Assembly (NCBI GenBank): GCA_021773035.1
Contig: JAJFKU010000017.1
Location: forward strand, 1 to 64,000
DNA: 64,000 nucleotides
From: Woeseiaceae bacterium
GTDB lineage: Bacteria; Pseudomonadota; Gammaproteobacteria; Steroidobacterales; Woeseiaceae
Reading direction: 5' to 3'
In this document: piece after piece, positions 4,006 to 27,980 of the stretch
How the letters are laid out: each line of letters begins with the position of its first letter
How positions within the stretch are numbered: position 1 is the first letter of the stretch
The notes under the pieces: generated by a model
What the model was told of the DNA's origin: nothing
The model's input: only the letters and a program-made list of their open reading frames with translations
The model's database searches: none
Position numbers and translations under genes: made by a program

Positions 4006-4020
4006 TGGCGGAGAGAGAGG
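4006..4020. repeat. Left att-like direct repeat of the tRNA-Ser island
   Basis: TGGCGGAGAGAGAGG here is identical to 29130-29144, which is the 3' end of the tRNA-Ser gene (encoded CCA, acceptor strand and the start of the T-stem, on the minus strand). Both copies have the same orientation. The left copy sits 387 bp before a P4-type integrase gene. This is the pattern expected when an island integrates into a tRNA 3' end. Confidence 0.8.
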
Positions 4021-4406: not shown

Positions 4407-5711
4407 GTGTACAAGCTAACCGTAATGGCGGTTAAGGCACTCAAGAAGCCTGGTTACTACAACGACGGCTCGGGACTGTATCTGAGAGTTACCAAATCGG
4501 GCACGAAATCCTGGATCTTCCGGTTTCGCGATCGTACGACACGCAAGGTCAGAGACATGGGACTTGGCAGCCTGCGTGACCTTTCGCTGGCCGAGGCTCG
4601 CGATGCCGCAGGGGAGGCTCGCAAGATTGTACGTTCGGGCGCTGACCCTATTACCGAACGGCAACTTGAACGGGCTGAGCGACGGTTAAAGGTAGAGAGT
4701 ATGTTCACCTTCGATCAGGCGGCGGAAAGATACGTCGCGATGGTGGTCGAACCGGTGTCCAAGAATTCAAAGCACTTGGAACAATGGAAAAACACGCTTC
4801 GCACCTATGCATCGCCGGTGATGGGTGCCCTTCCGGTGGCCGCGATCGATACCTACCATATACTGTCGGTGCTCGATCCAATCTGGCACACAAAGACCGA
4901 AACTGCTTGCCGGTTACGGGCCCGCATAGAGAAAGTTCTGGATTGGGCCAGAGCAAGAAAACACCGTGAAGGCCCAAACCCAGCTCGCTGGAGGGGTCAC
5001 ATGCAGGTACTACTGGTCGCACCCAACAAGATAAAGCGAGTGAGGCACTTTGCTTCGCTGCCCTACGCACGACTGCCAGAACTCATCGTGGAGATTCGGG
5101 GGCGTTCCGGCCACGCGGCACGGTGTCTGGAGTTCACTATTCTAACGGCAACTCGGACGGGGGAGTCTACTGGCGTGCAATGGCATGAAGTGGACTTGGA
5201 CCGAGCTGTATGGACCATTCCCGCCAGCCGTATGAAGACGCAGCGGGAACACCGCGTACCTCTGAGTAGTGCCGCAGTCGACATACTGAAGGGTCAGCAA
5301 GGCCAGCATGAACACCTCGTGTTTCCCAGCAAGAAAGGGCGGCACCTGCCACGTATGGCGATGCTGGATTTGCTCAATAATCTGGACACCGCCTACGAAG
5401 ACGGGGATGGACGCCCGATTACCGTGCACGGGTTTCGTAGCAGTTTCCGGACATGGGCAGCTGAGATGACAGCGTTTCCCCGCGACATTTGCGAAGCAAG
5501 CTTGGCGCATGTCACCAAGAGCAGGAGCGAGGCGGCTTATAACCATTCGGACCTTCTGGAGAAACGCGCAGAACTGATGAATGCGTGGGCAACGTACATC
5601 AACAACGAGGCTGAAGGGGCAGCTAAACAACAGAAAACGCCCACGGCAATTACCTGGATCCCACGGTACAGTGACGACCTGACCGTCACCTCCAAAAAGG
5701 AAACGCCTTGA
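4407..5711 (+). CDS. P4-type tyrosine-recombinase integrase of the island
   Basis: A 434-residue site-specific integrase with an N-terminal arm-binding domain (DUF4102 type, residues 1 to about 85, with the YNDGSGLYLRVTKSGTKSWIFRF signature), a core-binding domain and a C-terminal catalytic domain. The catalytic set is visible: Arg250 (TATRTGE), Lys277, His341 and Arg344 (HGFR), His368 (LAHV) and nucleophile Tyr378. The start is GTG at 4407 with an ACGGAG ribosome site about 10 bases upstream. It reads inward from the left island edge. Integrases of this family usually recombine into tRNA 3' ends, in agreement with the tRNA-Ser repeat. The downstream gene starts on the overlapping TTGA. Confidence 0.95.
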   Translation: MYKLTVMAVKALKKPGYYNDGSGLYLRVTKSGTKSWIFRFRDRTTRKVRDMGLGSLRDLSLAEARDAAGEARKIVRSGADPITERQLERAERRLKVESMFTFDQAAERYVAMVVEPVSKNSKHLEQWKNTLRTYASPVMGALPVAAIDTYHILSVLDPIWHTKTETACRLRARIEKVLDWARARKHREGPNPARWRGHMQVLLVAPNKIKRVRHFASLPYARLPELIVEIRGRSGHAARCLEFTILTATRTGESTGVQWHEVDLDRAVWTIPASRMKTQREHRVPLSSAAVDILKGQQGQHEHLVFPSKKGRHLPRMAMLDLLNNLDTAYEDGDGRPITVHGFRSSFRTWAAEMTAFPRDICEASLAHVTKSRSEAAYNHSDLLEKRAELMNAWATYINNEAEGAAKQQKTPTAITWIPRYSDDLTVTSKKETP

Positions 5712-6088
5712 AACAAAACATAGAAGACGTCGTTGCAGAGATGTCCGATGCTATTGAAGCGGCTGACGAGGCCCTGATAATGGGTGTGGCAGGCGTGGTC
5801 CACTCGATGACTGACCTGAGAACGGCTCTATCCAGCCTCGATAGCCTCCTGAGTCAGCGAAGATTCGAAAAGGCCGCTTCGCTGGGATACCGTGATATCA
5901 GTTCGAACTACGTTTTCCTGCAACGCACATTGGGCGCATTGCAGAAGGCAGACGACAACAAGGCGAAGATAATCCAGGACGTCGCCATGAAAACGCAATT
6001 GCCCTACGAAGAAGCGGCGCCATTCGTTGATCGCTTAATGGAATCCTCGATACCCAGGGGCCCAACGACAACACTTCGCGGCGACTAA
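5708..6088 (+). CDS. Small hypothetical protein coupled to the integrase
   Basis: A 126-residue soluble protein that I do not recognise. It starts at TTG (5708), and that TTGA overlaps the integrase stop, which suggests translational coupling; an ATG 11 codons inside is the alternative start. It is predicted to be almost all helical and acidic (IEDVVAEMSDAIEAADEALI at the N-terminus), without cysteines or membrane segments. The position next to the integrase suggests an excision or maintenance role, but it lacks an obvious winged-helix or helix-turn-helix motif typical of excisionases. Function unknown. Confidence 0.6.
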   Translation: MKQNIEDVVAEMSDAIEAADEALIMGVAGVVHSMTDLRTALSSLDSLLSQRRFEKAASLGYRDISSNYVFLQRTLGALQKADDNKAKIIQDVAMKTQLPYEEAAPFVDRLMESSIPRGPTTTLRGD

Positions 6089-6103
6089 TGGCAAAGTCGG
6101 TCC

Positions 6104-6185
6104 GTAGACAATCTGCCGCTACGACGAGAACTGCATTCCGGAACTGGGTAGATCATGATCTCAAACACGGTATAACTAGCGATAA
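6104..6185. repeat. Left direct-repeat block of the nested recombinase module
   Basis: This intergenic block holds ACAATCTGCCGCT (6108-6120) and ACTAGCGATAA (6175-6185). Both words recur, in the same order and orientation, at 10583-10595 and 10615-10625 on the other side of the recombinase/ParB-like/methylase/nuclease-like module. GTAGACAATCT (6104-6114) also recurs at 9539-9549, at the end of the methylase gene. Chance pairing of both words in two short intergenic regions is unlikely, so they probably mark recombination sites of the nested module. Confidence 0.55.
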
Positions 6186-6233
6186 ACTCAATTCTCACTA
6201 GTAATATCTGACTGAATTTTATACGCTTCTCGC

Positions 6234-7226
6234 ATGGAAAATTCTGTAACGTTTCCGAGAAGCGCCCTCGCCCAAATTGTGCTCGACAATGCCCTCGAAG
6301 CTGCCAAACGCTATTCGAAAAAGAGTCGAGCCGATTCTACCTGGCGAGCTTACAAGTCCGATTGGCGGCAGTTTGAAGCTTGGTGCCAAACCGTTTCGCT
6401 ACCAAGTATGCCTTCCGATCCGGATTGCGTAGCGATGTTTATCGCTTCTCAAGCGTCCGACGGTCTGAACCCTTCGACACTTAACCGCCGCCTCGCTGCA
6501 ATCCGACTTGTGCATCTGGGCGCTGGCCATCCCTCGCCGCACAACGCACTCAAGGTAGTCGAGGTTATGCGAGGCATTCGACGTGACTGGGCTCAGCCAC
6601 CAGCCAAGAAAGCCGCTGCGATCGACGAAGATATTAGGATAATGGCAGATGCTGTCGATCCAGAATCGGCGATGGGCCTGCGAGATCGCGCCCTTCTCCT
6701 CTTTGGCTTTGCTGGCGCGTTCCGGCGTTCCGAACTCGTGGCTCTCAACACCTGGAATCTCGAGGAGCGCGAGGAAGGCCTCAGAGTGACTATTGAGAAG
6801 TCGAAAACGGATCAGGAAACACAGGGCCAGGTGATTGCGATCGTTCGGCAGCCCGATTCACCGTACTGTCCGGTGCAGGCGCTTCAGGACTGGTTAACTG
6901 TGGCGGAGATTGATCAAGGCGCCCTCTTCCGTCGTATGTTCCGCGGCGACAAAGTCGGCGCATCACGGCTATCGGGACAAAGCGTCGCGTTGGTCGTCAA
7001 GGAATACGCTAGTCGGGCTGGGTTAGACTGGGAAAGGTATGCAGGCCATAGCTTAAGAAGTGGGTTCCTGACTAGCGCCGCGCGAAATCGAGCAAGTATT
7101 TTCAAAATGGCCGACCAGTCGCGGCACAAGTCTCTAGATATTTTGCGAGAATACGTGCGTACTGAGGAATTGTTTGACGACAATGCAGGCGAAACATTGC
7201 TGACCAACACGCAATCGGAAGGATAG
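6234..7226 (+). CDS. Second tyrosine recombinase (XerC/integrase-like)
   Basis: A 330-residue tyrosine recombinase with a SAM-like core-binding domain (about residues 25-115) and a catalytic domain. Catalytic residues visible are Arg164 (AFRRSEL), a Lys in EKSKTDQE, His272 and Arg275 (GHSLR), His298 (SRHKSLD) and Tyr307. It lacks the DUF4102 arm-binding domain, so it belongs to a different branch from the integrase at 4407. Only four bases separate it from the ParB-like gene, so the two are likely one operon with the methylase. Direct repeats on either side suggest it mobilises, or once mobilised, this module. Confidence 0.9.
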   Translation: MENSVTFPRSALAQIVLDNALEAAKRYSKKSRADSTWRAYKSDWRQFEAWCQTVSLPSMPSDPDCVAMFIASQASDGLNPSTLNRRLAAIRLVHLGAGHPSPHNALKVVEVMRGIRRDWAQPPAKKAAAIDEDIRIMADAVDPESAMGLRDRALLLFGFAGAFRRSELVALNTWNLEEREEGLRVTIEKSKTDQETQGQVIAIVRQPDSPYCPVQALQDWLTVAEIDQGALFRRMFRGDKVGASRLSGQSVALVVKEYASRAGLDWERYAGHSLRSGFLTSAARNRASIFKMADQSRHKSLDILREYVRTEELFDDNAGETLLTNTQSEG

Positions 7227-7230
7227 AAGA

Positions 7231-8688
7231 ATGGCCCGAAAAGACGAATGGAAATCAAAGCAATTGGCTGTAGCCAGCCTGCATTTGGATGCAAGAAACC
7301 CCCGTCTCGGCCGAGAGACGTCGAATCGTGCTCCGCGCGACATCATCCAGTATTTGTTTGAGCACGATAAAGCGCTTGAAGTCGCGCAGAGTATAGTCAC
7401 TTTGGGCTACTTTCCCAATGAACCGCTGCTGGTGATCGAAGAAAAGGGACAATACGTGGTGGTGGAAGGGAATAGAAGGCTTGCGGCGCTGAAGGCGCTG
7501 CGCGAACCAGGACTTCTCGACGGGGCGTATAGCGCCAAGGTCGCAAGGCTATCGAAGAAGGTTCGCGATCCTGAATCATTGAAGCGCGTGCCGGTAATCA
7601 TTGCACCCTCGCGTAAGGCAACTGACCAACAAATAGCGGGTAGGCATCGTGGCAGCCCGGTTTTGGCATGGGTCAAAGAAAACAGAGCAAGTTTCATATT
7701 GGACAAACTGTCGGAAGGTTACACAAACGATGCGCTTCGTGACGAGCTAGGATTCACTCTGAAAGATATCCAAGAAGCACGCCAGACACGGGCAATAGCA
7801 GACATGGCGCGTTCGCTGAAGCTATCAGATGAGGTGCAGGCGAAGCTAAACAACCCACGAGGCAATATTTTCTCTACTATTGAAAGGGTGTTCGATTCGT
7901 CTTCTGGGCAAAAGCACTTACGCGTGGAACGTAGTGCTGAATTTGGAATTCAGGGTACAACGACAAAGAAGGAGTTCTTGAAAGGATTCGAAAGGCTTGT
8001 TTCAGATATAGCACTGAAAAAGCAATCGTCGCGATCATTAAACAAGAATGATGACATAGAGGCGTATTTCAAGTCTTGGAAACCTAGCGAGCGGCCAGCC
8101 AAAAAGCGCGGTTCATTTGTTCCAGATGACGTCATCAAGAATACAACTGGCACACGCACTAGTGGCACCAAGAAAAAACCGCCTGCCAAGAAAAGAACAG
8201 CAAAGGCGAGCAACACGGTCATTCCGAAGAGTTTTGTCATTCGAGATCAAAACGACCGGCTGATAGATATTCGATCCGAGTTGGTTAAGTTGAAACGAGA
8301 GGACTATCCGAATGCGGGCGCCACTCTTTTGCGCGTTTTTCTTGAACTGTCAATAGTCCATTTCCTAGAGAAAATCGGCGAAATGGACAAATTGGTTAAG
8401 ACGCTAAAAGCTAAGAACGCCCTTCAGTTCGGGACGCCAACAATGAGACAAATGATGCCGGTTGTCGTGCGTATAGCCAAGAAGCACCTTCCCGATTCCC
8501 AATCGAAAAGTGTTCAAAAGGCCGTGAGGTACGACAAAGCTGCGCCGTTCTCTATAAGTGATATGCACTCTTTCGTGCATCAATCTTCCGAATTGCCCAG
8601 CGAGCGAGACATACGACAATTCTGGATGAGAACCGAGCCTTTGTTCAAACTAATGCTTGACGAAACGCCGGAGGACCTCCTCAAGTGA
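7231..8688 (+). CDS. ParB/Srx-domain DNA-binding protein paired with methylase
   Basis: A 485-residue protein with an N-terminal ParB/Srx-fold domain (about residues 10-115). The nucleotide-binding motif reads VVVEGNRRLAALKAL (EGNRR at 79-83, in place of the usual GERR). A helical middle part follows (about 140-270), then a basic, Lys/Pro/Thr-rich linker (about 300-330). The C-terminal helical domain (about 340-485) is unfamiliar to me. No partner ParA is encoded nearby, so a partition role is unlikely. The stop overlaps the GTG start of the adenine methylase by 4 bp, so the two proteins are made together. Similar stand-alone ParB-domain proteins occur in phage and defence islands; the function here is unproven. 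Confidence 0.75.
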   Translation: MARKDEWKSKQLAVASLHLDARNPRLGRETSNRAPRDIIQYLFEHDKALEVAQSIVTLGYFPNEPLLVIEEKGQYVVVEGNRRLAALKALREPGLLDGAYSAKVARLSKKVRDPESLKRVPVIIAPSRKATDQQIAGRHRGSPVLAWVKENRASFILDKLSEGYTNDALRDELGFTLKDIQEARQTRAIADMARSLKLSDEVQAKLNNPRGNIFSTIERVFDSSSGQKHLRVERSAEFGIQGTTTKKEFLKGFERLVSDIALKKQSSRSLNKNDDIEAYFKSWKPSERPAKKRGSFVPDDVIKNTTGTRTSGTKKKPPAKKRTAKASNTVIPKSFVIRDQNDRLIDIRSELVKLKREDYPNAGATLLRVFLELSIVHFLEKIGEMDKLVKTLKAKNALQFGTPTMRQMMPVVVRIAKKHLPDSQSKSVQKAVRYDKAAPFSISDMHSFVHQSSELPSERDIRQFWMRTEPLFKLMLDETPEDLLK

Positions 8689-9542
8689 GAGGATCCAGCC
8701 CGCTCCGCTATCCAGGCGGGAAATCTTCGCTATCTAGCCTCCTTCAACAAATTCGAAGTATTAACGGACTTGGTTCGACTGCGGTTGCTGAGCCGTTCGC
8801 AGGCGGGGCCGGTGCCGCACTTTCTCTCCTATTCTTAGAAGAAACGTCCAAGATTTACATTAACGACGTTGACGAATCGATTCATGATTTTTGGTGGACG
8901 CTTGTTAACAGGCCACTGCCATTCTTAAAGCTGCTGAAGTCGAAAAGAGTCAGCATGGCGGAATGGCGAAGACAAAGGCAAACATACAGGTCTACCGGTT
9001 ACGTCTCACGATTAAGACGAGGATTCGCAGCGTTCTATCTGAACCGATGCAACCGGTCAGGAATTATCATGAATGGAGGCCCAATCGGCGGAGTAGCTCA
9101 AGCCGGGAACTGGAAAATAGACGCCCGATTTAATAAGAAGGATCTCTTGGAAAGATGCGAACGTATTTCAGAGTATTCGGACCGCATCAGTGTCTCAAAG
9201 TTGGACGGGGTCGACTTTATTCGGTCGATGAGTTCGAAGAATACTATGCTCTTCATCGATCCGCCGTATTTTGAGAAAGGTCAAACACTTTACTTAAACT
9301 CACTCGATTCAGACTACCATTCTTCTCTTGCAGGAGAGCTCAGGAAATTAGATAGGGAACCTTGGGTTCTTACCTACGACGATTGCCCAGAAATTAGAGA
9401 TTTGTATAGTGCTTGGGCAAACGTTCACTCTTTCGGATTATCCTATGCGGCCGCACAAAAAAGGCGCGGACGGGAAATCCTAATCACACCAAAATGGATG
9501 AGTGTTCCGACTGAACAAGATTCTGCAGCTATTGAATGGTAG
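8685..9542 (+). CDS. Dam-type (D12 class) DNA N6-adenine methyltransferase
   Basis: A 285-residue adenine-specific DNA methyltransferase of the D12/Dam family. Motifs in order are RYPGGK (8-13, SAM-binding motif X), EPFAGGAG (36-43, motif I), INDVDE (59-64, acidic ribose-binding motif II) and the catalytic DPPY (192-195, motif IV) followed by FEKGQTLY. Length fits the family. The start is GTG at 8685 in a GTGA overlap with the ParB-like gene. The TAG stop lies inside a GTAGACAATCT word shared with the left repeat block. It could protect DNA from the convergent nuclease-like protein or act as an orphan epigenetic methylase. The target sequence cannot be read from the gene. Confidence 0.9.
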   Translation: MRGSSPLRYPGGKSSLSSLLQQIRSINGLGSTAVAEPFAGGAGAALSLLFLEETSKIYINDVDESIHDFWWTLVNRPLPFLKLLKSKRVSMAEWRRQRQTYRSTGYVSRLRRGFAAFYLNRCNRSGIIMNGGPIGGVAQAGNWKIDARFNKKDLLERCERISEYSDRISVSKLDGVDFIRSMSSKNTMLFIDPPYFEKGQTLYLNSLDSDYHSSLAGELRKLDREPWVLTYDDCPEIRDLYSAWANVHSFGLSYAAAQKRRGREILITPKWMSVPTEQDSAAIEW

Positions 9543-9549
9543 ACAATCT
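9539..9549. repeat. Third copy of the GTAGACAATCT word
   Basis: GTAGACAATCT at the methylase stop codon is identical to 6104-6114 and shares ACAATCT with the copy at 10583. It is followed by ACGATC, where the left copy has GCCGCTACGAC. It lies between the methylase and the convergent nuclease-like gene, so the repeats may divide the module into two units. Confidence 0.35.
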
Positions 9550-9554
9550 TACGA

Positions 9555-10526
9555 TCAGTTATCCAGAGATAGAAAACTCGAAAGTCCGTAAAGAGTCCGT
9601 ATCCAGAAAAGCCGTACTAAAGTAATAGCCCTATCCATTAAACCGCTTGACGCAGCGTAGTCTAGCCTGTGCAGCTGATCACCAATCGCGACGTACTCAA
9701 CACCTCGACATGTCGCGCCAACTTTCATTCGCACACTTGCCCTCGGATTATGTAGGCACACAAAATCATCGCCCATTCGTTTCGGGTAATTAGCGGAATC
9801 TACCCTCGAGTAGACTACAGCCGAAATCTCTTTAAGATCTTCTCCGAGGAATCCAGTTGTGTTGATCTCAGTTCCAGACGCTTTCCTCACAGATGTACGA
9901 AGCTGATAGCTTGTGCGCACTATATCTCCGCTATCGCGATTGACGGTTACGACTTGGTTGCCGATCGGGAAAAATGCTTTAACAATACGTTCTGGAACAA
10001 GATCACTGATACTGGAAGGAATGTTGCGACCATTTATGCAAACGACAAAACTGTCCTGGCTAGTCGCGATGCCACTGTCTATCGCGTTCTGAAATTGGAT
10101 CTTCTTGGCCGAAACGGCACCTGTCAGTCTGAGAATAATTTGCTTCTCAGGAACGGAAGAAAATCGCCCTTCCCTGGCTTCTGGGACCTTGTCGGCCCCC
10201 TCCCCGGCTGACGGTGCAGTAGCCTCAAACCAAGTGCGCATTCCGCCAATTGTGGAGTACAAATCGGGCCCACTATCGCCTGGTGTCGCTGGTTTCAAGT
10301 TGCAGTCTAGTAGAGTGCAACCCAAGTACATCTCCCAAAATCGCTCCGTGTAATTGTCCTTGGCTTCAGCCAAGAACTGAGTGTCTGCCAAATGTCGGAA
10401 GCGCTCCCAAAGTTCTTCCGTGTATTGCCTTGCCCCTAGGCAAAAACCATCAGTGGCATCGCGAACGTTGATGTACCCCTGATCGCTACCGTCACCGGCA
10501 CTAAAAAATGGAGAATTTTCGGTCAT
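9555..10526 (-). CDS. Putative PD-(D/E)xK-type nuclease of the methylase module
   Basis: A protein of about 323 residues, convergent with the methylase and only 12 bp from it. I choose ATG 10526 because an upstream extension to 10586 would run into the right repeat block. I do not recognise the family with certainty. Visible features are ERFWEMYLGC (61-70), then GPDLY (Asp88) and, 13 residues later, WFEATAP (Glu101-Ala-Thr). That is the spacing of a PD...ExK-like restriction-nuclease core, with Thr103 where Lys is usual. An Arg-rich helical segment and a C-terminal hydrophobic helix follow. The place next to a methylase suggests a restriction enzyme, but this is inference. Confidence 0.55.
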   Translation of the reverse strand: MTENSPFFSAGDGSDQGYINVRDATDGFCLGARQYTEELWERFRHLADTQFLAEAKDNYTERFWEMYLGCTLLDCNLKPATPGDSGPDLYSTIGGMRTWFEATAPSAGEGADKVPEAREGRFSSVPEKQIILRLTGAVSAKKIQFQNAIDSGIATSQDSFVVCINGRNIPSSISDLVPERIVKAFFPIGNQVVTVNRDSGDIVRTSYQLRTSVRKASGTEINTTGFLGEDLKEISAVVYSRVDSANYPKRMGDDFVCLHNPRASVRMKVGATCRGVEYVAIGDQLHRLDYAASSGLMDRAITLVRLFWIRTLYGLSSFLSLDN

Positions 10527-10582
10527 TACACTAGCAGGATAGTCGCAACGGCATCGCTTATCAAAATGCGGTAGCTGAGGAA

Positions 10583-10625
10583 ACAATCTGCCGCTGATCG
10601 TGAGCGACTGAAATACTAGCGATAA
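10583..10625. repeat. Right direct-repeat block of the nested module
   Basis: ACAATCTGCCGCT (10583-10595) and ACTAGCGATAA (10615-10625) repeat the two words of the left block (6108-6120 and 6175-6185) in the same order, with a shorter spacer. Seventeen bases further is GTATC-TAC-GATAC (10642-10654), a perfect inverted repeat of the kind that could form a recombinase core site. Confidence 0.55.
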
Positions 10626-11005
10626 TGCCGCTTACCAAATGGTATCTACGATACGTCAGACAGGAAATTGATGCGCCCTGCCATTGATCAGCGAGTCCTC
10701 AGCAACATAGCGTGTTAGGTGGTCACCACGTCCCTCACCCGCGGAATCGGACCCTCGCGTATAAGTGTCACGACGGGACCACCGCGGGCGAACGGGATCA
10801 GTGCAGAACATGGACGTCGCCGGTACTTTCGTCTCCCAGTACGCGAACCCCTTCGACATCGTGCTGCTCGAGGTCGGCTCTGCAACCTCCAAACGCACCT
10901 ACGAGAGCCACCTGGCGTGATATCGCCGTGGTGGGCCTTCTGTATATCTGACGCCTGAGACTGGTCGAGATCGCGTCGATCGATATCGAACACTACGGTG
11001 ATGCG
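10626..11005. other. Intergenic stretch without supported genes
   Basis: This 380-bp stretch lies between the nuclease-like gene and the TPR-sulfotransferase. It is richer in G and C than the module to its left and contains several short overlapping frames on both strands, one of which (from ATG 10810, 36 codons) reads like a protein fragment (FVSQYANPFDIVLLEVGSA). None has a recognisable domain or a convincing start. It may be a scrap of an older gene. Confidence 0.35.
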
Positions 11006-12604
11006 TTATCTCGAAACGCTATCTTTGTAGCATCCAAGTTCTCCGCGTAACGGCTGAAGTTGCTCTTGAAAGTTCTTCCACTTCCCAATCGAGGACGAAT
11101 AGATCTTTTGGCGAACTTGAACTGCACTCGCCGTCGACGATGCGGCTGAACTTTGATGAAAGTCGAGCACGCCTTCTTCCCACGGAAGGCCTAAAAACTC
11201 GACTATGCGACGACACTCCAATTCAGTGTTTTCGACGAGGTGTTCGTAGGAGACCTCTAGGAAGCTCTCGGCCGGGAGTACTGACTTCCAGTGCTCAACG
11301 AGCTTCCTGAACGCGACGAAGTATTTTCCCATTTCAACCTGATCGTATGTAAAAGGATAAGGCCCCGTTAGATACGATTTGTAGGCTGCATAACATGAGT
11401 CCATTGGATCCCTTTTGAGCACGATGATTTTCGACTTAGGCAGTGCCGCGTGAATGAGACCACAGTAGAGATAGTTAATTGGCATCTTATCGATGAATTT
11501 TGGCGTCGCCCCGGTTCGCGGTCGCGTAGCGTCGACGTAGCGTCTCCCCAGTTCCTCCATTGGGAGACTCAATCCAATTTCGATCAGCTCGTCGCGTCGG
11601 ACATTAGGCTTGTTTTCTGACGCAAGCCGCACGAGCTCTACTGCGAAGTCGTTAAGCTCTCCCGCCGACTCTACCAACGAATGGCTCTGTATAATTCTTT
11701 CAACAAGTGTCGTTCCGGATCGCGGAAGTCCTAGTACAAAAACGGGTTCTTCCGATCCATACCCAGGTCGAGCAGCAACTATTGCATCCTTCGTGTTGTT
11801 AGCGATGATTTTCTCAATCACCGCAATATCAGTTCTTACATCGTATCTCGTGTTCATTCGCTGGGTGTCAGCACCCAGCTTCAGATGCTGAAATGACTTG
11901 TCAAACGCCTGAATATCCTCGCATTCCTTGGCCAAGGCATAACAGATTAAGACCTTGCCACGCCAGTCCGTTATGCCACGCTCCAGGAGTTTCTCCATTT
12001 GCGTGATGTGATTTTGGTCAGCGGTCTGGCGACGCAGGTCCGAGCGCGTGTAATAAGCTTGATAGTCACTCGGGTTTAGCGTTATCACGCGGTTGCAGGT
12101 TTCCTCCGCCTCTTCGATACGACCCAGCATTCGCTGTACCGCGCCAAGGTTATACTGGAAATTGGAATTCTCTGGCTGTGCGCTTACTGCTTTCTCGAAC
12201 AGTGGAACAGCCGCTTCGAATGCACCACAAGCGCTGTAGACGCCCCCGAGGGCATCTAGGAGGTCAGCGTCTCTGACATTTAGTTCAGAAGCCGACTCTG
12301 CGGCGGCGTGCGCCTCTTTGCGACGTCCGAGCAGCGCCAAACACTTCGCTCGCTGAACCTGAAATCTCGCCTCTAGCGGATTAAGTTCCGCCGCCTTTTG
12401 CGCACACTCCGCCGCTTGCGCCGTGTGTCCGTTGCGCAAACAAATTTCGCTCATTAGCCACCATGCTTCTGAAGCGTCCTTATTTTCTTTTACAATTGCT
12501 GCGCAGACGCGTCCAGCTTCAGCGAGATTTCCCGCGGCGATAAATTCGTGGACTCGGTCAAGCTTGGATAACTCAAATTGATCGGACGGGTTTTGCATTT
12601 CCAT
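11006..12604 (-). CDS. TPR-domain sulfotransferase
   Basis: A 532-residue two-part protein. Residues about 15-245 are tandem tetratricopeptide repeats (for example NGHTAQAAECAQKAAELNP and GAFEAAVPLFEKAVSAQPEN). Residues about 285-530 are a PAPS-dependent sulfotransferase domain with the 5'-phosphosulfate loop LGLPRSGTTL (291-300) and the 3'-phosphate motif VLKRDPMDSCYAAYKS (395-410). It should transfer sulfate from PAPS to a hydroxyl or amine acceptor in the cytoplasm; the acceptor is unknown. It lies downstream of the TonB receptor gene on the same strand, with a strong hairpin between them, so it may be separately transcribed. Confidence 0.9.
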   Translation of the reverse strand: MEMQNPSDQFELSKLDRVHEFIAAGNLAEAGRVCAAIVKENKDASEAWWLMSEICLRNGHTAQAAECAQKAAELNPLEARFQVQRAKCLALLGRRKEAHAAAESASELNVRDADLLDALGGVYSACGAFEAAVPLFEKAVSAQPENSNFQYNLGAVQRMLGRIEEAEETCNRVITLNPSDYQAYYTRSDLRRQTADQNHITQMEKLLERGITDWRGKVLICYALAKECEDIQAFDKSFQHLKLGADTQRMNTRYDVRTDIAVIEKIIANNTKDAIVAARPGYGSEEPVFVLGLPRSGTTLVERIIQSHSLVESAGELNDFAVELVRLASENKPNVRRDELIEIGLSLPMEELGRRYVDATRPRTGATPKFIDKMPINYLYCGLIHAALPKSKIIVLKRDPMDSCYAAYKSYLTGPYPFTYDQVEMGKYFVAFRKLVEHWKSVLPAESFLEVSYEHLVENTELECRRIVEFLGLPWEEGVLDFHQSSAASSTASAVQVRQKIYSSSIGKWKNFQEQLQPLRGELGCYKDSVSR

Positions 12605-12697
12605 TCCATATCATAGAAGAAAACACCCTGACAGAATCACGTTCTCACTTCTATCATTCGATAGTGTTGTTGTCATTCACCTAATTGTTTGAGAACT

Positions 12698-12731
12698 CAT
12701 TGGGTTGGGGTCGGACTGCCCCAACCCAATG
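12698..12731 (-). terminator. Hairpin after the TonB-receptor gene
   Basis: A perfect 13-bp inverted repeat (CATTGGGTTGGGG at 12698-12710 and its complement at 12719-12731) with an 8-base loop lies 33 bp downstream of the receptor stop codon. No clear U-run follows on the minus strand, so it may be an imperfect intrinsic terminator or an mRNA-stabilising hairpin. Confidence 0.55.
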
Positions 12732-12764
12732 AAGCGGCTGACGGTTGCTACACTCCGTCGCCGC

Positions 12765-15365
12765 TTAGTTCGTCTTCCACCCAAACCTAATGCCGGCAGT
12801 TCTTGGTCGAGTCACAAAGGAAATTGCGCCGCGCGTACCCCACTGCGTTGCCGGAACGCCGCCTGTCGACCCTAACGAATTGCCGATATTGTCGACAAAC
12901 AAGCTGGCATACCAATTCTTGGAGTCGCTGGCGAGCGTGACCGATGCATCCCAGATCGAGAATCCCTTGCTTTCAAAGAAGTTGCGTCCTGCGGACGTAA
13001 TATCGTTGAAATTTGATAGTGCAGCGCTTCGATAAGAACTGTTAACGTGCCAATTCAGACTCAGATCCGACGAACTGCCCAACGAGTGAAAATAGTCAGA
13101 CGAGAGTGATAGGCTGTGCCGAGGGACGCCAGGCAACCTGTCGCCGTCATTGCCGGTGATCAAGGCGGCTGGGGGCAGTCCGATACCCTGAACCAGATCC
13201 TCAATGACGAACGACTGGCTAAGTTCCGCATCCGTGAACGTGTATCCAAACGAATATGTCAGTCCGTCACGTAGTCGGCCGGCCATTTCCAACTCAACAC
13301 CTTGGCTCGTCGCCTCACCGCCGTTGACCGCAATTACTGCGCCCGCTGAATTGAAATCATCGAATTGGAAGTTGTCCCATCGAATATGAAAAACGGCGGC
13401 CGTGAAATACTGATCGGCCAACGTGCCCTTAAGGCCAACCTCGTAGTTTTGCGTTTTGTCGGGCGTGTAGGTAATGATCTCTGGAAGAGAAGCAAACGGG
13501 CCGACTGTCGATACGCCATTCGCACCCCCCCGCCTGAATCCTTCAGCGTAGGTGAAATACACCTTCATATCGTCATTGAAATCGTAGGACGTGTTCAGCT
13601 TGAAAATTTGGTCGTTGACGTCGACGGTGTTTAATAAGCTGGTTGCCCCAAAAGGATTGACGCCATCATCAGAGCAAAAAACACCGCAAAACGGAATGAC
13701 TTGACTAAATGTATTCGTGAATTCCTGCCAGAATGCTCGTACGCCACCAGTTACCTGCCAACGATCAGAGATGTTGTAGGTTACCTCGCCAAAAACGGCG
13801 ATGTCCTCAAAATCAAATACGCGATCATTCGTAAACACTAAGTCGCCGAATGTATCTGGGTTTGCGTGGAATCCGACGCCTACCGGCGACTGGTCAAACT
13901 CAGTTACCCCAGCGTTGAATTGTTCGGTGTTAAAATTGATTTCGAGATCCTGATAGAACGCGCCAATCACGTACTGAAACTGAGAATCTGTAGTGGACGC
14001 TAGTCGAATTTCTTGAACGAACCCTGTTTCTTCTGTTCTCGCTTCGTCGTAGGCAAGGAGCCTCGGATAAAAACCATAGTAGTACGCCAAGCTCGTTGAG
14101 CCGGCCCCCGGCGTCGCGTTAAAAAGCGCGGTAATGTCTCGAAGATAGTCTGCGTCATTCTCATAATAGGATGACGCCGATGTCAAGGTTGCGAATCCCA
14201 GCTCTAAATTGGCGTCGACCTTAATCAGATTGACGTCGCGCTCATATGGCTGATCGATCAACTGACTTACGTCGTAATTGTCGTTTCCTGGAAAGAATGT
14301 TCCGCCATTTGGAAACTGTCCGCCGACAACTCCGTTGGCGTTATCATGGAGCGCACCCGGAAAATCCACGACGCTATTGTCGACGAATACACCGTTATTG
14401 TCGGGGTTGTGGACTTGCGGATTGTCAACTTCGTCGTGCTGATAAATATAGCTCACTTGCACATCGAAGGTGTCCGTGACATCAAGTGCCAGTCCCGCTC
14501 GTAAGTAGACGGATTCCGAGTCGTTCACATCATCCACTGGCGATCGAAGCACAAAGCCGCTGGAGAGATCGCCTGGAACGGAGGGCGTCGGAATATCCAG
14601 CGATCCACCGGCCGCAGTGCCACCGCCAAGCTCTACTAATCCGTTGTGATCAATAAAACCACCTAAGCGCTTGTATCCGCCCGAGGCCCGGAATGCCGAT
14701 CGACCTTCAACGATGGGAATATTAACAACTGCGTCGAATGAGCCATTGGCCTCGTCTGAGTCGTCGGTCACTGACCCTTCCGCATTAAGCTCCGCGTACA
14801 ATTCGCTTGAGTCCGGCGCCTTCGGAATGACGCGAATGGTTCCACCCAATGCGCCGGAGCCGTACAACGTACCCTGCGGTCCGCGAAGAACCTCAACACG
14901 CTCTATGTCGGACAGTTGCATCGGGAAAAAGATTGGCGTTTCGCCCAGATAGGTAGAAACAGGCGCAACTGTCTGATTTGGAAACGCAAGACCGTTTGAC
15001 GTTTGGTTCGCGTTGATGCCTCGCAAGATGAAGTTGTTGTTGTTGCCGCGCACAGCCGGCCCAACGTCGGTAAGCGCCAAGCCCGGAACAAAGCTACCCA
15101 AGCTTGCAAAGTCGGCAACACGACTATTCTCAAGCGTTGCGCCCGTGTAAGCGGAAATATTGTACGGCACTTCCTGAATGCTCTGCTCGCGTCGCTGAGC
15201 GGTTACTACTATTTCCTCGAGTTCTTGTGCGGTCACGACCCCACACGCAGTGAGGGCGGTGGTCCCAGCCAATACCTTAGAAATAGTGCTTGCGAGCACC
15301 GTTTTCGTGAAAGTTGGCGTCCGAGTTGGTTTAACGGTCGTCTTGGTTTTTCCCCTGCCCATCAT
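12765..15365 (-). CDS. TonB-dependent outer-membrane receptor
   Basis: An 866-residue TonB-dependent receptor. I choose the start at ATG 15365 because AGGAGACAG lies directly upstream; an in-frame ATG at 15413 has no such site. After a basic N-terminus and a signal peptide (ending near ACGVVTAQ), the TonB box EEIVVTAQRRE is followed by the plug domain (VPYNISAYTG, NFILRGI, IERVEVLRGPQGTLYGSGALGGTIRVIPK). A 22-strand-type barrel runs to the C-terminal FGWKTN. Such receptors import siderophores, cobalamin, glycans or other bulky solutes; the ligand is not evident. It stands with a TPR-sulfotransferase, an IclR regulator and catabolic genes, so it probably imports the substrate of the nearby operon. 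Its promoter carries a copy of the CATATTATG palindrome. Confidence 0.93.
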   Translation of the reverse strand: MMGRGKTKTTVKPTRTPTFTKTVLASTISKVLAGTTALTACGVVTAQELEEIVVTAQRREQSIQEVPYNISAYTGATLENSRVADFASLGSFVPGLALTDVGPAVRGNNNNFILRGINANQTSNGLAFPNQTVAPVSTYLGETPIFFPMQLSDIERVEVLRGPQGTLYGSGALGGTIRVIPKAPDSSELYAELNAEGSVTDDSDEANGSFDAVVNIPIVEGRSAFRASGGYKRLGGFIDHNGLVELGGGTAAGGSLDIPTPSVPGDLSSGFVLRSPVDDVNDSESVYLRAGLALDVTDTFDVQVSYIYQHDEVDNPQVHNPDNNGVFVDNSVVDFPGALHDNANGVVGGQFPNGGTFFPGNDNYDVSQLIDQPYERDVNLIKVDANLELGFATLTSASSYYENDADYLRDITALFNATPGAGSTSLAYYYGFYPRLLAYDEARTEETGFVQEIRLASTTDSQFQYVIGAFYQDLEINFNTEQFNAGVTEFDQSPVGVGFHANPDTFGDLVFTNDRVFDFEDIAVFGEVTYNISDRWQVTGGVRAFWQEFTNTFSQVIPFCGVFCSDDGVNPFGATSLLNTVDVNDQIFKLNTSYDFNDDMKVYFTYAEGFRRGGANGVSTVGPFASLPEIITYTPDKTQNYEVGLKGTLADQYFTAAVFHIRWDNFQFDDFNSAGAVIAVNGGEATSQGVELEMAGRLRDGLTYSFGYTFTDAELSQSFVIEDLVQGIGLPPAALITGNDGDRLPGVPRHSLSLSSDYFHSLGSSSDLSLNWHVNSSYRSAALSNFNDITSAGRNFFESKGFSIWDASVTLASDSKNWYASLFVDNIGNSLGSTGGVPATQWGTRGAISFVTRPRTAGIRFGWKTN

Positions 15366-15735
15366 CTGTCTCCTGTACTCCGATCGATTGAGAATTGCTT
15401 CCCCCGACTGCAATGGTCGGAATTTGAGTTGAGCGTAGCACAGAAATCTACTATCTGATAATGAATGACTTATTACTCCATATTATGAGAGTAAGAAAAA
15501 GCAGCAGCTTTTAAAAACAATGCCTTATGACTATTTAGGATGCCGACAGAAATTGAGGTCGTGGGTTACTTCGCGGCAAGAAGGAACATGCGAATGGTAT
15601 TTCATCGCGGCTGTTCGCAAGACCCTCGCGACAGCTTAGGCACCGTTGATGAGTTCTCTCGGGGTTGTGGACTCTATTCGAGCTGCAATTCGTTCGGTGG
15701 TCAGAACAAACTTATTTTGGGTCTTGGTATCAACC
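15366..15735. other. Promoter region of the TonB receptor
   Basis: No gene is supported in this gap between the receptor start and the end of the alpha/beta hydrolase gene. It includes the ribosome site of the receptor, the CATATTATG word at 15479-15487 and an AT-rich tract around 15450-15530 suited to a promoter. Short frames inside it show no domains. Confidence 0.5.
15479..15487. promoter_or_regulatory. CATATTATG candidate operator, TonB receptor promoter
   Basis: The 9-bp palindrome CATATTATG lies about 115 bp upstream of the receptor start. The same word occurs in the promoter regions of the oxidase operon (26278) and, inverted, of the MFS gene (27942), which suggests a shared regulator, perhaps the IclR protein of the cluster. 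Confidence 0.45.
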
Positions 15736-16608
15736 TCACCGCATAGCTTTCAAGTAGTCGTCGAAGACTCGGTTAAACTCTTCGTGACGCTCCCAGAACA
15801 TCATGTGTTGTCCCATCTCAACGACAGTCGCGCTTGGCGTATGTTTTCCGGCCCAAGCCGACACGATTTCGCCCCACCCCTCATGAACGACGTACAACAA
15901 CGGCACTTTTCCTTCCAGTGCAATTAGGTCCGGTTCAAAATCGTAGTAGTTGAATGCGGCATACTTTAATGCCGTCACAAAATCCGGCGTTTGATCGGAT
16001 ATATCCGAGAACCACTGAATGTTCTCTTCCGATTTATTCTCCAGCACCGCTTTCGCGGCCTCCCTGTTGAACGTTTGCCGGTCACGCATTGGTTCTAGAG
16101 TATGAAACTTCATTAGGCCGTCCGCATCATCACGTCTATACCAAACCCACTCTAGGGCATTATCCTCGCCGATCGCCTTTGGGGAGCCGTCCAACAGAAC
16201 CACGCCTCGTACGTTGTCGATGCCACATTCACGGATATAGGCAAGCATGTCGTAGGACCCAGCAGACCACCCGACTAAGACCGCGTCTTTCAAGTCTAAT
16301 TCTCGAATAACTGCGCTTAAGTCCCGACCGTGCTGCTCGTAGTAATGGCCTTCGGTCGTCTTCGTCGTCAATCCTTGACCACGTGGGTCGTAGGAGATAG
16401 CTCGAAACTGCGAAGAATCTGCGTAGTGTTCCAGCTGACGAACAAACACCTTCGTCGACATTGTAAGGCCGGGTATGAAAATAATAGGTATATCACCGTT
16501 GCCCGATTCCTCGTAGTGAATTGTCAGCGAATCCGACAGTTTGAGGTATTGCCCGGCGTGGCTGGCGCCTATTGGCTTTCTCATGAGCAAATCACTGCAA
16601 TTGCCCAC
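15736..16608 (-). CDS. Alpha/beta hydrolase of the catabolic cluster
   Basis: A 290-residue alpha/beta-hydrolase-fold enzyme. The oxyanion region reads IIFIPGLTM, the nucleophile elbow is GWSAGS (Ser115), and the catalytic His is His268 (MGQHMMFWE); the acid is likely the Asp or Glu after the LLYVVHEG strand. DPRGQGLT is typical of the enol-lactonase/haloperoxidase-like branch. No signal peptide is seen, so it is cytoplasmic. It follows the IclR gene by 29 bp on the same strand and is probably co-transcribed with it. The substrate is unknown; a lactone or ester intermediate of the neighbouring pathway is plausible. Confidence 0.85.
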   Translation of the reverse strand: MGNCSDLLMRKPIGASHAGQYLKLSDSLTIHYEESGNGDIPIIFIPGLTMSTKVFVRQLEHYADSSQFRAISYDPRGQGLTTKTTEGHYYEQHGRDLSAVIRELDLKDAVLVGWSAGSYDMLAYIRECGIDNVRGVVLLDGSPKAIGEDNALEWVWYRRDDADGLMKFHTLEPMRDRQTFNREAAKAVLENKSEENIQWFSDISDQTPDFVTALKYAAFNYYDFEPDLIALEGKVPLLYVVHEGWGEIVSAWAGKHTPSATVVEMGQHMMFWERHEEFNRVFDDYLKAMR

Positions 16609-16637
16609 AGGAATGACCCGAGATTAACCTAAGGACT

Positions 16638-17447
16638 TTATCCTCGAGTGGAGACGATGGTGTCCAGCGGATTGATGCGTGCTTCAATCTTCCTGGCCTC
16701 TTGGTTAAGTAGCTCAATCAATTCTACCTGTCGTTTTTTGGTTAACCGGGCGCTTGTCATGTTGACAGCGAGCGAGCCGGTGACTTCGTAGCCTTCTGGC
16801 CTTATGGCGACGGAAAGTGCCGATATGCCATCTACCAATTCGCCGTCGTCTATCGCGTAACCCTGGTCGCGAATATCGGACAAACGACTTCGAATCTTCG
16901 TGCTGGACAATCCGGCGTAGCGTCGATAGATCGAAGTGTTCGCTTTCAGTACCGCGTCAATCGACTCAGAATCCAAGTGCGCAAGAATTGCCTGACTCGC
17001 AGGGCCTACGCCCAGGGGAATCTGTCCACCAACGCCGCCCGACAGGCTGTCTATGACATAGTTGCCCTGTTGGCGATCAATACACACGGCGTTAAAACCA
17101 TTGTGAGCCATGAGAAATGCAGTGTCGCCCGTTTTTGCGGCAATGTTCAGAACAGAGGGATGTCCGATCTTCCGCAGTCCACTGGCATCGGCCGCTCGCG
17201 AACCGAGAACAAAAAAAGTGAGTCCAAGCCGGTAACGCTTAGTCGATTCCTCTTTCGCGATAAGGCCATGTCGCTCCAGGCTTGCGACAATACGATGTGT
17301 CGTCGACATCGTAAGCCCAATGGTTTTTGCGAGCTGGCCGACCTTCGCGCCTTCGTGGCCTGCCTGTCCGAGCGCGTCTAGAATTGCTATCGCCCGGTCA
17401 AGAAGTTGGGTGCCTGTCGATTTGTCTGTCACTGTTGTCTTACTCAA
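16638..17447 (-). CDS. IclR-family transcriptional regulator
   Basis: A 269-residue IclR regulator. An N-terminal winged helix-turn-helix (about residues 12-75, with LLDRAIAILDALGQAG and TIGLTMSTTHRIVASLERHGLI) is followed by the effector-binding GAF-like IclR domain (about 85-255), which includes QIPLGVGPASQAILAHL and GYAIDDGELVDGISALSVAI. Family members control catabolic operons and respond to small acids or aromatic compounds. It is followed by a hydrolase and preceded by the MmgE/PrpD gene, all on the same strand. It is the only regulator in the cluster and so the first candidate to bind the repeated CATATTATG palindromes. Confidence 0.92.
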   Translation of the reverse strand: MSKTTVTDKSTGTQLLDRAIAILDALGQAGHEGAKVGQLAKTIGLTMSTTHRIVASLERHGLIAKEESTKRYRLGLTFFVLGSRAADASGLRKIGHPSVLNIAAKTGDTAFLMAHNGFNAVCIDRQQGNYVIDSLSGGVGGQIPLGVGPASQAILAHLDSESIDAVLKANTSIYRRYAGLSSTKIRSRLSDIRDQGYAIDDGELVDGISALSVAIRPEGYEVTGSLAVNMTSARLTKKRQVELIELLNQEARKIEARINPLDTIVSTRG

Positions 17448-17597
17448 CGTTTGGGTATTCGCGATTTAGTAGGGATCGGAACAGTATAACAGTGCCGTTG
17501 GTGGCGATGATCCGTGGAGTAATCGACCCTAAAGAACCACATTCTACTCACGCGAAAATGAGCATTCTATAAGAGCATGTCTCGCGCGCGCTGCACC

Positions 17598-18956
17598 TTA
17601 ACATCGCGGCGACCCGGTCTTTACATCCAGGGGCAGGGCCAGCGCGTCTAACATTGGTTTGGAATCTCCGTGCCGAAGTGAGTCAATTGCGCCTACTAGA
17701 TAATCCACTTTCTCGACAGCGACCGTATCGCTGGCGACCACCCGCAGCTTCTCCACCAACTCGTCCCACACCATCGGATTATCTGGCTCACCTTTCGGTA
17801 CGAGTACCGTATTGGCGAACACACTTGAGCGAGTTTTGACCTCTATACGTGCAGGCACTGCCTTTGAAAACATCGCATCCAGCTTGGGATCCACCGCAAG
17901 GGTGACTCGGCTTGTCAGGGCCAGAACCTCGCGATCGTTTAGCCAGCGTTCGGTCAACGGTAAGAGTGACTTCACGCCTTTGAGCGCCGCCAATGCGACG
18001 CAAAATGGAATACTGTACTGCGCAGCCTCGAGATTTTTGGGCGCCAGGTCGTTGTTCAATCTAAGCGCCCTAGAGAATGTGTGAATGTTGATTTCGTGCA
18101 CGTCCTCAAGGTCGAACTGCTCCCGTGCTCGCAACTCAAGAAACGCGTCCATCGCCGCATGTGACCAGCGACAACAGCCATACGGTTTGAAATACACACT
18201 GTCGATCAGCCACGTCGACCCCAACTCTGATGTGAGCTTGTCGCGATCGTAGATGTGTTCATTATCCATGAGGTCCATTGGACCGGTAAAGCCCGCTGCG
18301 GCCAGTTCAACGGCAGCAATTCCCGTCGCAGTCGCCCACGGAATCCCTTCCTTGACGTGATTTCCCATCATTTGAGAATATGCGATCGCCGCGAGGTTCG
18401 GAGCACTGGATCCAGCGATCGATATGGCCTGTGCGACTTGTAGTGGCGGTAATCGCCGTAGCCACGCGGACGCTGCTGCCGCGCCTTGGCCACACCACGG
18501 ACCCGTGACAAGCGTGTCGAGTTTATTGATATCGCGAGACGCGGCAATGCGAATGGCAATTTCATAGCCGATAACGGTGGCAATCAGTATCTCTTCCGCC
18601 GTCGATTCGAAAGCGTCCGCGGTCGCCAGCACGGCCGGTATTATGGACGCCCCGGGGTGACCCGCAGCTGCGCGATGTCCATCATCGAGATCCAGCATCG
18701 ACGCGATCGCAGCGTTTGAAAACGCCGCGCCGGTTACGGTGAGCTTAATATCTGAAAACCAACACTCTGCCGGTCCGGCTCCCCAGATCGTCGGCGCGGC
18801 CGTTGCTGCAGCCTTTCCACCTCGACTGAAGTAGCCGCCGATAGCGGCACCTGCCAAGTCGAGAATCGCACAAACAGCAATGTCCTGACTCGCTTGTGGC
18901 ACTTGCTTGGTTTCCACAACGAAACCAGCCAATTCCTGAGCGATCGTCACGTGCAC
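17598..18956 (-). CDS. MmgE/PrpD-family dehydratase or isomerase
   Basis: A 452-residue cytoplasmic enzyme of the MmgE/PrpD family, whose known members include 2-methylcitrate dehydratase, cis-aconitate decarboxylase and an iminodisuccinate epimerase. Typical segments are LDLDDGHRAAAGHPGASIIPAVLA (about residues 67-90), IAASRDINKL, the HVKEGIPWATATGIAAVELA helix and YFKPYGCCRWSHAAMDA. It is the last gene of a run of same-strand catabolic genes, about 110 bp after dhaL. No methylcitrate-cycle partners (prpB, prpC) are nearby, so a role in propionate use is not supported. The reaction is unknown. Confidence 0.85.
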   Translation of the reverse strand: MHVTIAQELAGFVVETKQVPQASQDIAVCAILDLAGAAIGGYFSRGGKAAATAAPTIWGAGPAECWFSDIKLTVTGAAFSNAAIASMLDLDDGHRAAAGHPGASIIPAVLATADAFESTAEEILIATVIGYEIAIRIAASRDINKLDTLVTGPWCGQGAAAASAWLRRLPPLQVAQAISIAGSSAPNLAAIAYSQMMGNHVKEGIPWATATGIAAVELAAAGFTGPMDLMDNEHIYDRDKLTSELGSTWLIDSVYFKPYGCCRWSHAAMDAFLELRAREQFDLEDVHEINIHTFSRALRLNNDLAPKNLEAAQYSIPFCVALAALKGVKSLLPLTERWLNDREVLALTSRVTLAVDPKLDAMFSKAVPARIEVKTRSSVFANTVLVPKGEPDNPMVWDELVEKLRVVASDTVAVEKVDYLVGAIDSLRHGDSKPMLDALALPLDVKTGSPRC

Positions 18957-19067
18957 CCTCCCGGAACTCTCGAATCAGGTTTGAAAACGCAATACAGAAC
19001 CACGTTCGTTTCGTAAATCGGCCGGTGATATACACCTGTTGTGGCTGCCATATAGGAATTCTCGCCG

Positions 19068-20722: not shown

Positions 20723-20768
20723 GAATGTTCTCCAAATTCTCTGTTCGTCGTTGCAGATCCGTTAGGGA

Positions 20769-23338: not shown

Positions 23339-23378
23339 ATATGCCTCTTGCTTTATCTGCTATTGATTGGCGCGATCT

Positions 23379-27852: not shown

Positions 27853-27941
27853 AATTCTGGACCCCTGCGAATCAATCAGCTGGCATCACGTCCTGCGAAC
27901 AGACATTCGTCCATCGGTCCGACTGTAAGCTTACTTGAATG

Positions 27942-27980
27942 CATAATATGGTTATAATATATTCAAAATGCCATATTGTG
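27942..27980. promoter_or_regulatory. Paired CATATTATG-type candidate operators, MFS promoter
   Basis: CATAATATG (27942-27950, the reverse complement of CATATTATG) and CATATTGTG (27972-27980, one mismatch) are 30 bp apart, about three helical turns. They lie between the MFS gene start and the broken oxidase-subunit gene that diverges from it, which is where an operator controlling both would sit. Confidence 0.45.

Follow-up and report, generated by a model that had tools for sequence, protein, structure and literature searches.

Mobile elements have fixed hotspots in which defence genes gather and turn over rapidly, often by an unknown recombination pathway. Integrons with cassette arrays combine a tyrosine recombinase with serial sites between units of cargo, and in Tn4651 resolution is assisted by TnpT. 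TnpS/rst resolution is known in Tn4651-type transposons from two studies (PMC7157771, PMC4619425), and PMC13141974 describes dif modules that recombine at identical or one-off spacers. According to Vassallo et al. 2022 (PMC9519451), in which a host without the mrr region was used for PD-lambda-5, this system gives broad protection and appears to be a compacted restriction-modification (RM) and abortive infection (Abi) system. Rousset et al. 2022 (PMC9122126) speculate on cos ends and leave the exchange pathway to further work. Here, we describe a four-gene module in a 64,000-nucleotide stretch from a Woeseiaceae bacterium (contig JAJFKU010000017.1, positions 1 to 64,000; the whole stretch is called the window). 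The module occupies a tRNA-Ser island, lies between two 28-bp cores and encodes a recombinase that by its sequence is of the TnpS type, along with presumed defence proteins. We present evidence that the module is probably a defence cassette loaded into the cargo slot of the island by TnpS-type site-specific recombination.

The cassette forms the first cargo block of the island, directly behind int-orf126, and its left edge can be placed to within a single core. A second tRNA-Ser island of the same genome, on contig G000:C42 (handles beginning with G, C and L are ours for genomes, contigs and loci), is 91.8% identical over 645 bp to window positions 5555-6187, which comprise the end of int, orf126, the 13-bp word ACAATCTGCCGCT and the left part of the core. 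This homology stops at 6187, inside the core, and beyond the core 8 of 40 positions match; ACAATCTGCCGCT stands 67 bp from the core in the window and 66 bp from it in G000:C42. DNA of locus L030, which carries a TnpT-linked tnpS, matches the window from 6172, with 27 of 28 positions in the core, 26 of 40 to its right and 8 of 40 to its left. Since the match to C42 ends in the core and the match to L030 begins at 6172, the core at 6175 is the exact seam between island backbone and tnpS segment.

This core (6175-6202) is an inverted pair of 11-bp arms around a 6-bp spacer, directly upstream of tnpS, with ACTAGCGATAA as one arm. It scores 34.4 bits against a weight matrix built from 11 TnpS-associated cores, the window's own site being excluded (the L037 site has a 7-bp spacer, of which one base was dropped for the matrix). 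Cores lie upstream of tnpS in L001, L002, L006, L030, L031, L033, L097 and L098, and also in L034-L037, where the proteins are about 40% identical; across cores the arms are conserved and the spacers vary. Random sequence should yield 0.024 scores of at least 18 bits per 64 kb, a rate somewhat too low for real DNA, as 246 kb of comparison loci held 5 matches of at least 12 bits versus 2.9 by the random rate. The window has matches at 6175 (34.4 bits), 10615 (18.4), 28739 (24.6) and 28764 (18.9), plus the same sites on the opposite strand, and no site of even 10 bits outside the tRNA-Ser island. A site of at least 16 bits is present within about 450 bp upstream of TnpS relatives in 16 of 51 distinct regions, including those of 7 of the 9 relatives with at least 50% identity. 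Six of these 16 sites (L043, L044, L049, L051, L058 and L228; 17.6-26.7 bits) are neither in the matrix nor near copies of sites in it. The full core pattern, allowing up to 3 mismatches, was found in 16 of 396 genomes of the order, versus 4 with control hits. The first 24 bp of the core at 10615 are identical to site 13933 of a core array in G015 (L198), with unrelated flanks, and the spacer GGGCGA at the right end of the window's island recurs in G000:C42 (15.5 bits) and G000:C70 (17.6 bits). In viral contigs two exact core patterns gave no hit, and the stretch of pWW0 with the Tn4651 rst has no matrix match of at least 13 bits. A further core, at G000:C6:138-165 (L063, L109), shares its left arm and spacer with the left core of the window, an identity of 25 bp; the right arm is apparently interrupted by an IS3-like end, and an AlpA-like gene and a tRNA-like sequence lie near it by inspection.

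The recombinase encoded directly behind the left core is, on sequence comparison, a TnpS-type enzyme, kin to the resolvases of Tn3/Tni transposons. It matches Pfam Phage_integrase (2.2e-12), has Cre and XerD as solved relatives, and is 31% identical to the TnpS of pWW0/Tn4651 (1.2e-29). Alignment to Tn4651 TnpS and Cre assigns the motifs R-K-HxxR-H/W-Y, which start at residues 163, 188, 272, 297 and 305, with Tyr307 as the expected nucleophile. Among relatives about 55-70% identical, L001, L002 and L004 accompany a Tn3 transposase (DDE_Tnp_Tn3 about 2e-113 for L001 and L002, whose TnpS, beside Tn3 TnpA, are 63-65% identical to that of the window); relatives in L001, L097 and L098 accompany a divergent TnpT (KfrA_N 4e-5 for L097, below the cut-off), and the one in L099 lies near TniB (1.3e-41), with a similar layout by inspection in L100. 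In L099 and L100, a Tni-type gene set has a TnpS-like recombinase gene on each side, and the two genes differ. A tree of 28 rows places the window TnpS in a pair with the G016 TnpS that precedes CBASS (cyclic-oligonucleotide-based anti-phage signalling system) genes (support 99/96), and this pair is nested in a clade with transposon TnpS (100/99). The truncated fragments from G054, the nearest kin of the window TnpS by identity, were left out of the tree, so we make no claim of a 'solo' TnpS clade. Two TnpS-like genes are followed by AbiEi-type genes: a truncated close relative, 87% identical, in L029 of G054 (AbiEi_4 9.1e-10) and, by inspection, a distant one in L040/L159 (G172).

The features of the island are collected in Table 1. 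Genes 1-3 are packed like an operon, with a 4-bp gap and then a GTGA overlap, and gene 4 converges on gene 3 with 12 bp between them; the conserved part of gene 4 suggests the ATG at 10526 as its start (323 aa). The two words ACAATCTGCCGCT and ACTAGCGATAA each occur twice in the window as exact copies and nowhere else in it, on one strand and in one order at either flank. Exact coordinates thus bear out both the flanking repeats and the gene packing described in a sequence-only reading of this DNA. The gap between the words is 54 bp at the left flank but 19 bp at the right, so they do not form one long repeat. ACAATCTGCCGCT was rejected as a crossover site: it is not core-like (no matrix match of at least 10 bits there), and its left copy belongs to the backbone. 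Its right copy, 19 bp ahead of the right core, has TGCCGC in common with the spacer of that core.

Table 1. Features of the tRNA-Ser island, with the four-gene cassette and its cores
Feature	Position	Strand	Remarks
attL repeat TGGCGGAGAGAGAG	4006..4019	+	14-bp exact repeat with 29130-29143
P4-type integrase	4407..5711	+	Pfam Arm-DNA-bind_3, Phage_int_M, Phage_integrase
orf126, unknown function, island backbone	5708..6088	+	94% identical copy in island G000:C42
ACAATCTGCCGCT, left copy, island backbone	6108..6120	+	also in G000:C42
Left core ACTAGCGATAA-ACTCAA-TTCTCACTAGT, seam of backbone and TnpS segment	6175..6202	+	34.4 bits
Gene 1, putative TnpS-type tyrosine recombinase, 330 aa	6234..7226	+	R/K/HxxR/H/Y motifs present
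Gene 2, ParB-like protein, PD-Lambda-5 component A by profile	7231..8688	+	PADLOC 1.2e-55
Gene 3, D12/Dam-type adenine methylase, PD-Lambda-5 component B by profile	8685..9542	+	DPPY motif; PADLOC 9.9e-98
Gene 4, PD-T7-5-like presumed nuclease	9555..10586	-	PD-T7-5 2.3e-8, phrog_8571 1.7e-21
ACAATCTGCCGCT, right copy	10583..10595	+	exact match
Right core of cassette ACTAGCGATAA-TGCCGC-TTACCAAATGG, right arm degenerate	10615..10642	+	18.4 bits
Second cargo block	10643..28711		ORF (open reading frame) lists, names by inspection
Right-end cores, two, overlapping by 3 bp	28712..28764	-	matrix 24.6 and 18.9 bits
tRNA-Ser(GCT), island target	29130..29220	-	attR repeat 29130-29143; TGGCGGAGAGAGAG is the tRNA 3' end

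The ParB-like protein and the methylase match the PADLOC profiles PD-Lambda-5_A (PDLC03998) and PD-Lambda-5_B (PDLC04018), and the genes are adjacent in the same operon with a 4-bp overlap; judged by these profiles, the two are a PD-lambda-5-type defence pair. The methylase also matches Pfam MethyltransfD12 (5.2e-13), and the ParB-like protein matches parB_part at 1.4e-7, below that profile's cut-off. L153, a PD-lambda-5 locus without TnpS, contains a matrix match of 16.7 bits, a second, chance-level example. The match of gene 4 to PD-T7-5 is weak. Its motifs RxWE, GPD and WxEA are invariant across four aligned sequences and would suit a PD-(D/E)xK nuclease with the lysine not in the usual place; we regard the product as an independent, presumed nuclease of PD-T7-5-like type. 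A single-sequence fold model of gene 4 had a mean pLDDT (predicted local distance difference test score) of 31.7 and was not used.

Two further lines of evidence come from the plan of the islands and from conjugative elements. The repeat pair and an orthologous island in G022 place the window's island at 4006-29143 (about 25 kb), with a P4-type integrase gene next to an attachment (att) repeat of the tRNA 3' end, as in P4-type tRNA integrative islands. The island of G022, at the same tRNA-Ser/alaS/recX/recA locus, measures 9 kb and is bounded by the same repeat; its integrase is 86% identical, its cargo is different, and a C-terminal remnant of TnpS lies directly behind int. By inspection that cargo (L032:8299-14888) contains Schlafen/AlbA-, RES-, T4beta-, sce7726- and sce7725-like genes; six were scanned in PADLOC, with one clear match (cll, 4.2e-21). 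Matches to orf126 occur in 2 of 73 genomes of the genus, namely the window's own genome and, as a fragment, G498. The second cargo block of the window holds, by inspection, sulfotransferase/TPR (tetratricopeptide repeat), TonB receptor, amidase-, kinase-, oxidoreductase- and MFS-like (major facilitator superfamily) genes, and ends at the cores TGTAGTGATAA-CGGTCC-TTCTCGATAGT (24.6 bits) and ACAAGCGATAA-GGGCGA-TTACTGATTGT (18.9 bits).

The C42 island has the same plan as that of the window: core, defence block, core, metabolic block, core, tRNA-Ser. Its core at 3173 is followed by an SLFN_AlbA_2 gene (4.5e-14) and then by CapP, CapH, cyclase (1.1e-147), E2 (9.8e-48) and HNH-SAVED effector (1.3e-151) genes, so ordered, and the CBASS operon lies between two cores, 3173-9755 (L217). 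The second of these cores (9728-9755, 22.8 bits) leads into genes that are metabolic by inspection, and these are followed by a core at about 29790 (15.5 bits) and by tRNA-Ser(GGA). The defence cargo between the cores thus differs from island to island, and two islands with different defence cargo at like sites suggest that bacteria can swap defence genes there. The TnpS matches of the window's own genome lie outside C42.

Seams at cores also occur in two integrative and conjugative elements (ICEs), in G015 (TraG_N 4.6e-71) and G016 (TraC 9.3e-85), whose backbones share 80% identity over 2.58 kb until, 3 bp beyond the core, they give way to unrelated cargo. The G015 element has five cores of 16-28 bits in L198 (G015:C18:310000-326937, at 2577, 3547, 9396, 13933 and 15355), where about 0.02 sites of at least 16 bits are expected in 17 kb of random sequence; they surround type IIG RM (1.9e-104), SIR2 (2.8e-14) and GajB (1.6e-169, cut by the contig end) genes. 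An FRG gene (PDC-S15, 1.4e-93) lies behind the core of the G016 element; another G016 contig has an integrase gene, a core, a broken tnpS and then Cap15, JAB and E1 (CBASS) genes, and in G608 an ApeA-like gene (PDC-S58, 1.8e-78) adjoins a core. Several core loci from the pattern search end at contig ends or insertion sequence (IS) elements. On G000:C59 a 185-bp direct repeat ends exactly at two outer cores. That contig (L192, L193) has three cores in the same orientation, at 859, 25412 and 33867; by inspection two of them precede paralogous FecI-like/FecR-like/TonB/peptidase-like modules, and a large NTPase-like gene between cores (1444 aa) has no PADLOC match.

These observations suggest a mechanism for the assembly of the island. 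The cargo slot of the P4-type tRNA-Ser island would be bounded by 28-bp cores, each with an 11-bp arm, a 6-bp spacer and an 11-bp arm, and the cassette would have brought its own TnpS gene directly behind a core, along with the PD-lambda-5-type pair and the PD-T7-5-like nuclease gene. TnpS may join an arriving circle or replicon to the island or ICE by recombination between a core on each, and blocks of cargo would in this way be gained, dropped or replaced at cores, much as XerCD does with dif modules. We expect the methylase to label self DNA, and the ParB-like protein to act as the NTP-dependent arm for restriction or abortive infection. Catalysis by TnpS, a circular intermediate, mobility at present, phage defence by this copy and the division of labour within the pair are proposed from the arrangement of the genes and sites. 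More tentatively, and at somewhat less than even probability, TnpS-type recombinases and 28-bp cores may load, stack and swap defence cassettes in tRNA islands and conjugative elements at large, giving integron-like arrays.

A number of results count against this reading. No site of at least 16 bits was found in 35 of the 51 upstream regions; most belong to TnpS of at most 42% identity, and two (L072 and L073) to TnpS at 57-60%. ACTAGCGATAA alone has 4 copies in the 5.4-Mb genome versus 5 for the reversed control, and the half-site ACTAGCGATAAN6TT had 11 hits against 11 for the control in 73 genus genomes; counts of the half-site were dropped as evidence, and in the absence of enrichment of a single arm the weight rests on the complete site together with its location and surroundings. 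The right arm of the right core (10632-10642) is degenerate, and the spacers flanking the cassette differ (ACTCAA on the left, TGCCGC on the right), so that the pair as it stands may not excise. No empty slot was seen, and 12 of 14 P4-integrase loci scanned have no core of at least 13 bits within short flanks. More than one core of at least 16 bits was found only in G015 among the core loci of the pattern search (n = 12, C59 uncounted), and in that genome, with the richest core array, no TnpS homologue was detected at E ≤ 1e-3. Four TnpT queries retrieved no relative from the window (E ≤ 1e-3), and what lies upstream of tnpS is island backbone. Mobility at present is further disfavoured by the state of tnpS: G016 has a broken copy and G022 a remnant, and in G015 none was detected. 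It may therefore be that TnpS acts early in moving cargo and is lost later, leaving the seams.

The most substantial alternative, which we nevertheless hold unlikely, is that TnpS and its core are what is left of a Tn3/Tni-type transposon after the loss of tnpA and tnpT, with the defence genes as independent arrivals and the right core decayed or due to chance. The closest TnpS relatives are indeed transposon-borne (Tn3 DDE domain 1.8e-113, TniB 1.3e-41), fragments of G054 lie beside KfrA_N-type TnpT genes in L030 (N-terminal, 83%) and L031 (65%; KfrA_N 2.8e-14), and the G015 core array stands in a genome without detected TnpS. However, the other side of the left core is intact island backbone rather than transposon, and the whole window lacks a TnpT relative and, with two TnpA queries at E ≤ 1e-3, a relative of TnpA, as a Tn3-family transposon would have. 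C42, moreover, has cores and a defence block although the TnpS matches of its genome lie elsewhere, and three elements share a right-end spacer. Also unlikely, and ranked next, is the view that the cores are short homologies or operator palindromes unused by TnpS and that cargo is exchanged by homologous recombination between islands. The 645 bp common to C42 and the window could serve such exchange, some core sites are degenerate, and the position of two C59 cores upstream of FecI-like sigma genes (by inspection) would suit an operator. Against this view, the island pair, the ICE pair and the 185-bp repeat of C59 all lose homology inside a core or at most 3 bp from one, the conserved arms and varying spacers are as expected of recombinase sites, and the core is found upstream of tnpS genes in several genera.

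The sequence-only reading had taken the four genes for one self-mobile defence or epigenetic-switch unit, which we now consider very improbable and reject as a single system. Its favourable points stand, in that three genes are packed like an operon, all four lie between two cores, and defence genes adjoin a recombinase gene between repeats resembling recombination sites; the ParB-like/methylase pair, gene 4 and the recombinase nevertheless each occur independently elsewhere. The ParB-like protein is found at E ≤ 1e-10 in 13 of 369 genomes of the class, the window's own included; the methylase adjoins it in 10 of the other 12, and neither a gene-4 nor a TnpS relative lies beside it in any of these 12 (tblastn, E ≤ 1e-4; up to 1.5 kb of flank in every case, 8.9-19 kb in six). 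The recombinase and the nuclease-like gene, which that reading had proposed to follow alongside the pair, thus do not accompany it in the flanks searched. Relatives of gene 4 are present in 4 of 72,556 plasmid records. Of the three neighbourhoods read, the first is unannotated, another adjoins a PrlF/YhaV toxin-antitoxin pair and the third lies among prophage genes, and none contains a relative of the pair or of TnpS; no match to gene 4 was found in 50,697 phage records, and none to gene 4 or the ParB-like protein in viral contigs. As to a type II RM endonuclease, gene 4 is PD-(D/E)xK-like by motif, has a weak PD-T7-5 match and did not turn up beside the methylase in the other loci read, and the suggestion of a non-standard RM system or epigenetic switch finds no support in a pair that matches PD-Lambda-5_A and _B. 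Independent occurrence of the genes was what that reading had itself named as telling against a unit; the repeats belong to a larger architecture of cargo exchange, beyond the reach of that reading. Least probable of all are dif-like sites served by host XerCD. The 11-6-11 geometry is that of pdif sites (PMC13141974), but the cores are near-palindromic, as for a single recombinase, and dif-type arms (CGCATAA/TTATGTTAAAT) differ from core arms (ACTAGCGATAA/TTCTCGCTAGT). With a dif pattern, dif-type sites were found in G000 (2 mismatches) and exactly in G015, G016 and G022, and none in G608; since the arms in these 4 of 5 genomes searched are other than those of the core, service by host XerCD was rejected.

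A loaded defence cassette remains our preferred reading of the module. Because the cargo ends fall on a 28-bp site that can be defined, and because the cassette itself encodes a candidate recombinase, the question of turnover becomes directly testable, and the core offers a sequence handle for locating the edges of unknown defence cassettes. If the wider and more tentative proposal made above is true, site-specific recombination builds up arrays of defence systems. TnpS/rst resolution, dif modules, PD-lambda-5 and defence hotspots are already known; in the literature searched, mostly without subscription journals, we found no description of TnpS-type sites or cores that bound defence cassettes or islands or form the seams of defence-island cargo.

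The closest parallel in geometry is that of the dif (pdif) modules of Acinetobacter plasmids, in which XerCD acts on 11-6-11 bp sites with variable spacers and mobile blocks of cargo lie between them. Unlike these modules, the cores described here are near-palindromic with arms that differ from the dif-type sites of these genomes, lie in chromosomal islands or ICEs, adjoin anti-phage genes in most of the cargo blocks read, and have a TnpS-type gene in some cassettes. As in TnpS/TnpT-rst resolution of Tn4651-type Tn3 transposons, a core is directly upstream of a tnpS homologue; the cassette, however, lacks tnpT and tnpA, and its core is the seam between the cargo and the backbone of an integrative island. 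Integrons differ in that the cores here are short 11-6-11 sites, the blocks are several kb long with genes in both directions, and the recombinase is of another family. The cassette resembles PD-lambda-5 (Vassallo et al. 2022) in its adjacent genes for a ParB-like protein and an adenine methylase, with strong matches to both components, but, as a predicted system, is situated in a chromosomal island rather than a prophage and lies between TnpS-type cores. Finally, like the P2/P4-like defence hotspots and genomic islands (Rousset et al. 2022, PMC9122126; PMC12629846), the island carries variable defence cargo at a fixed place; unlike them, it has a short recombination site that marks the ends of the cargo.

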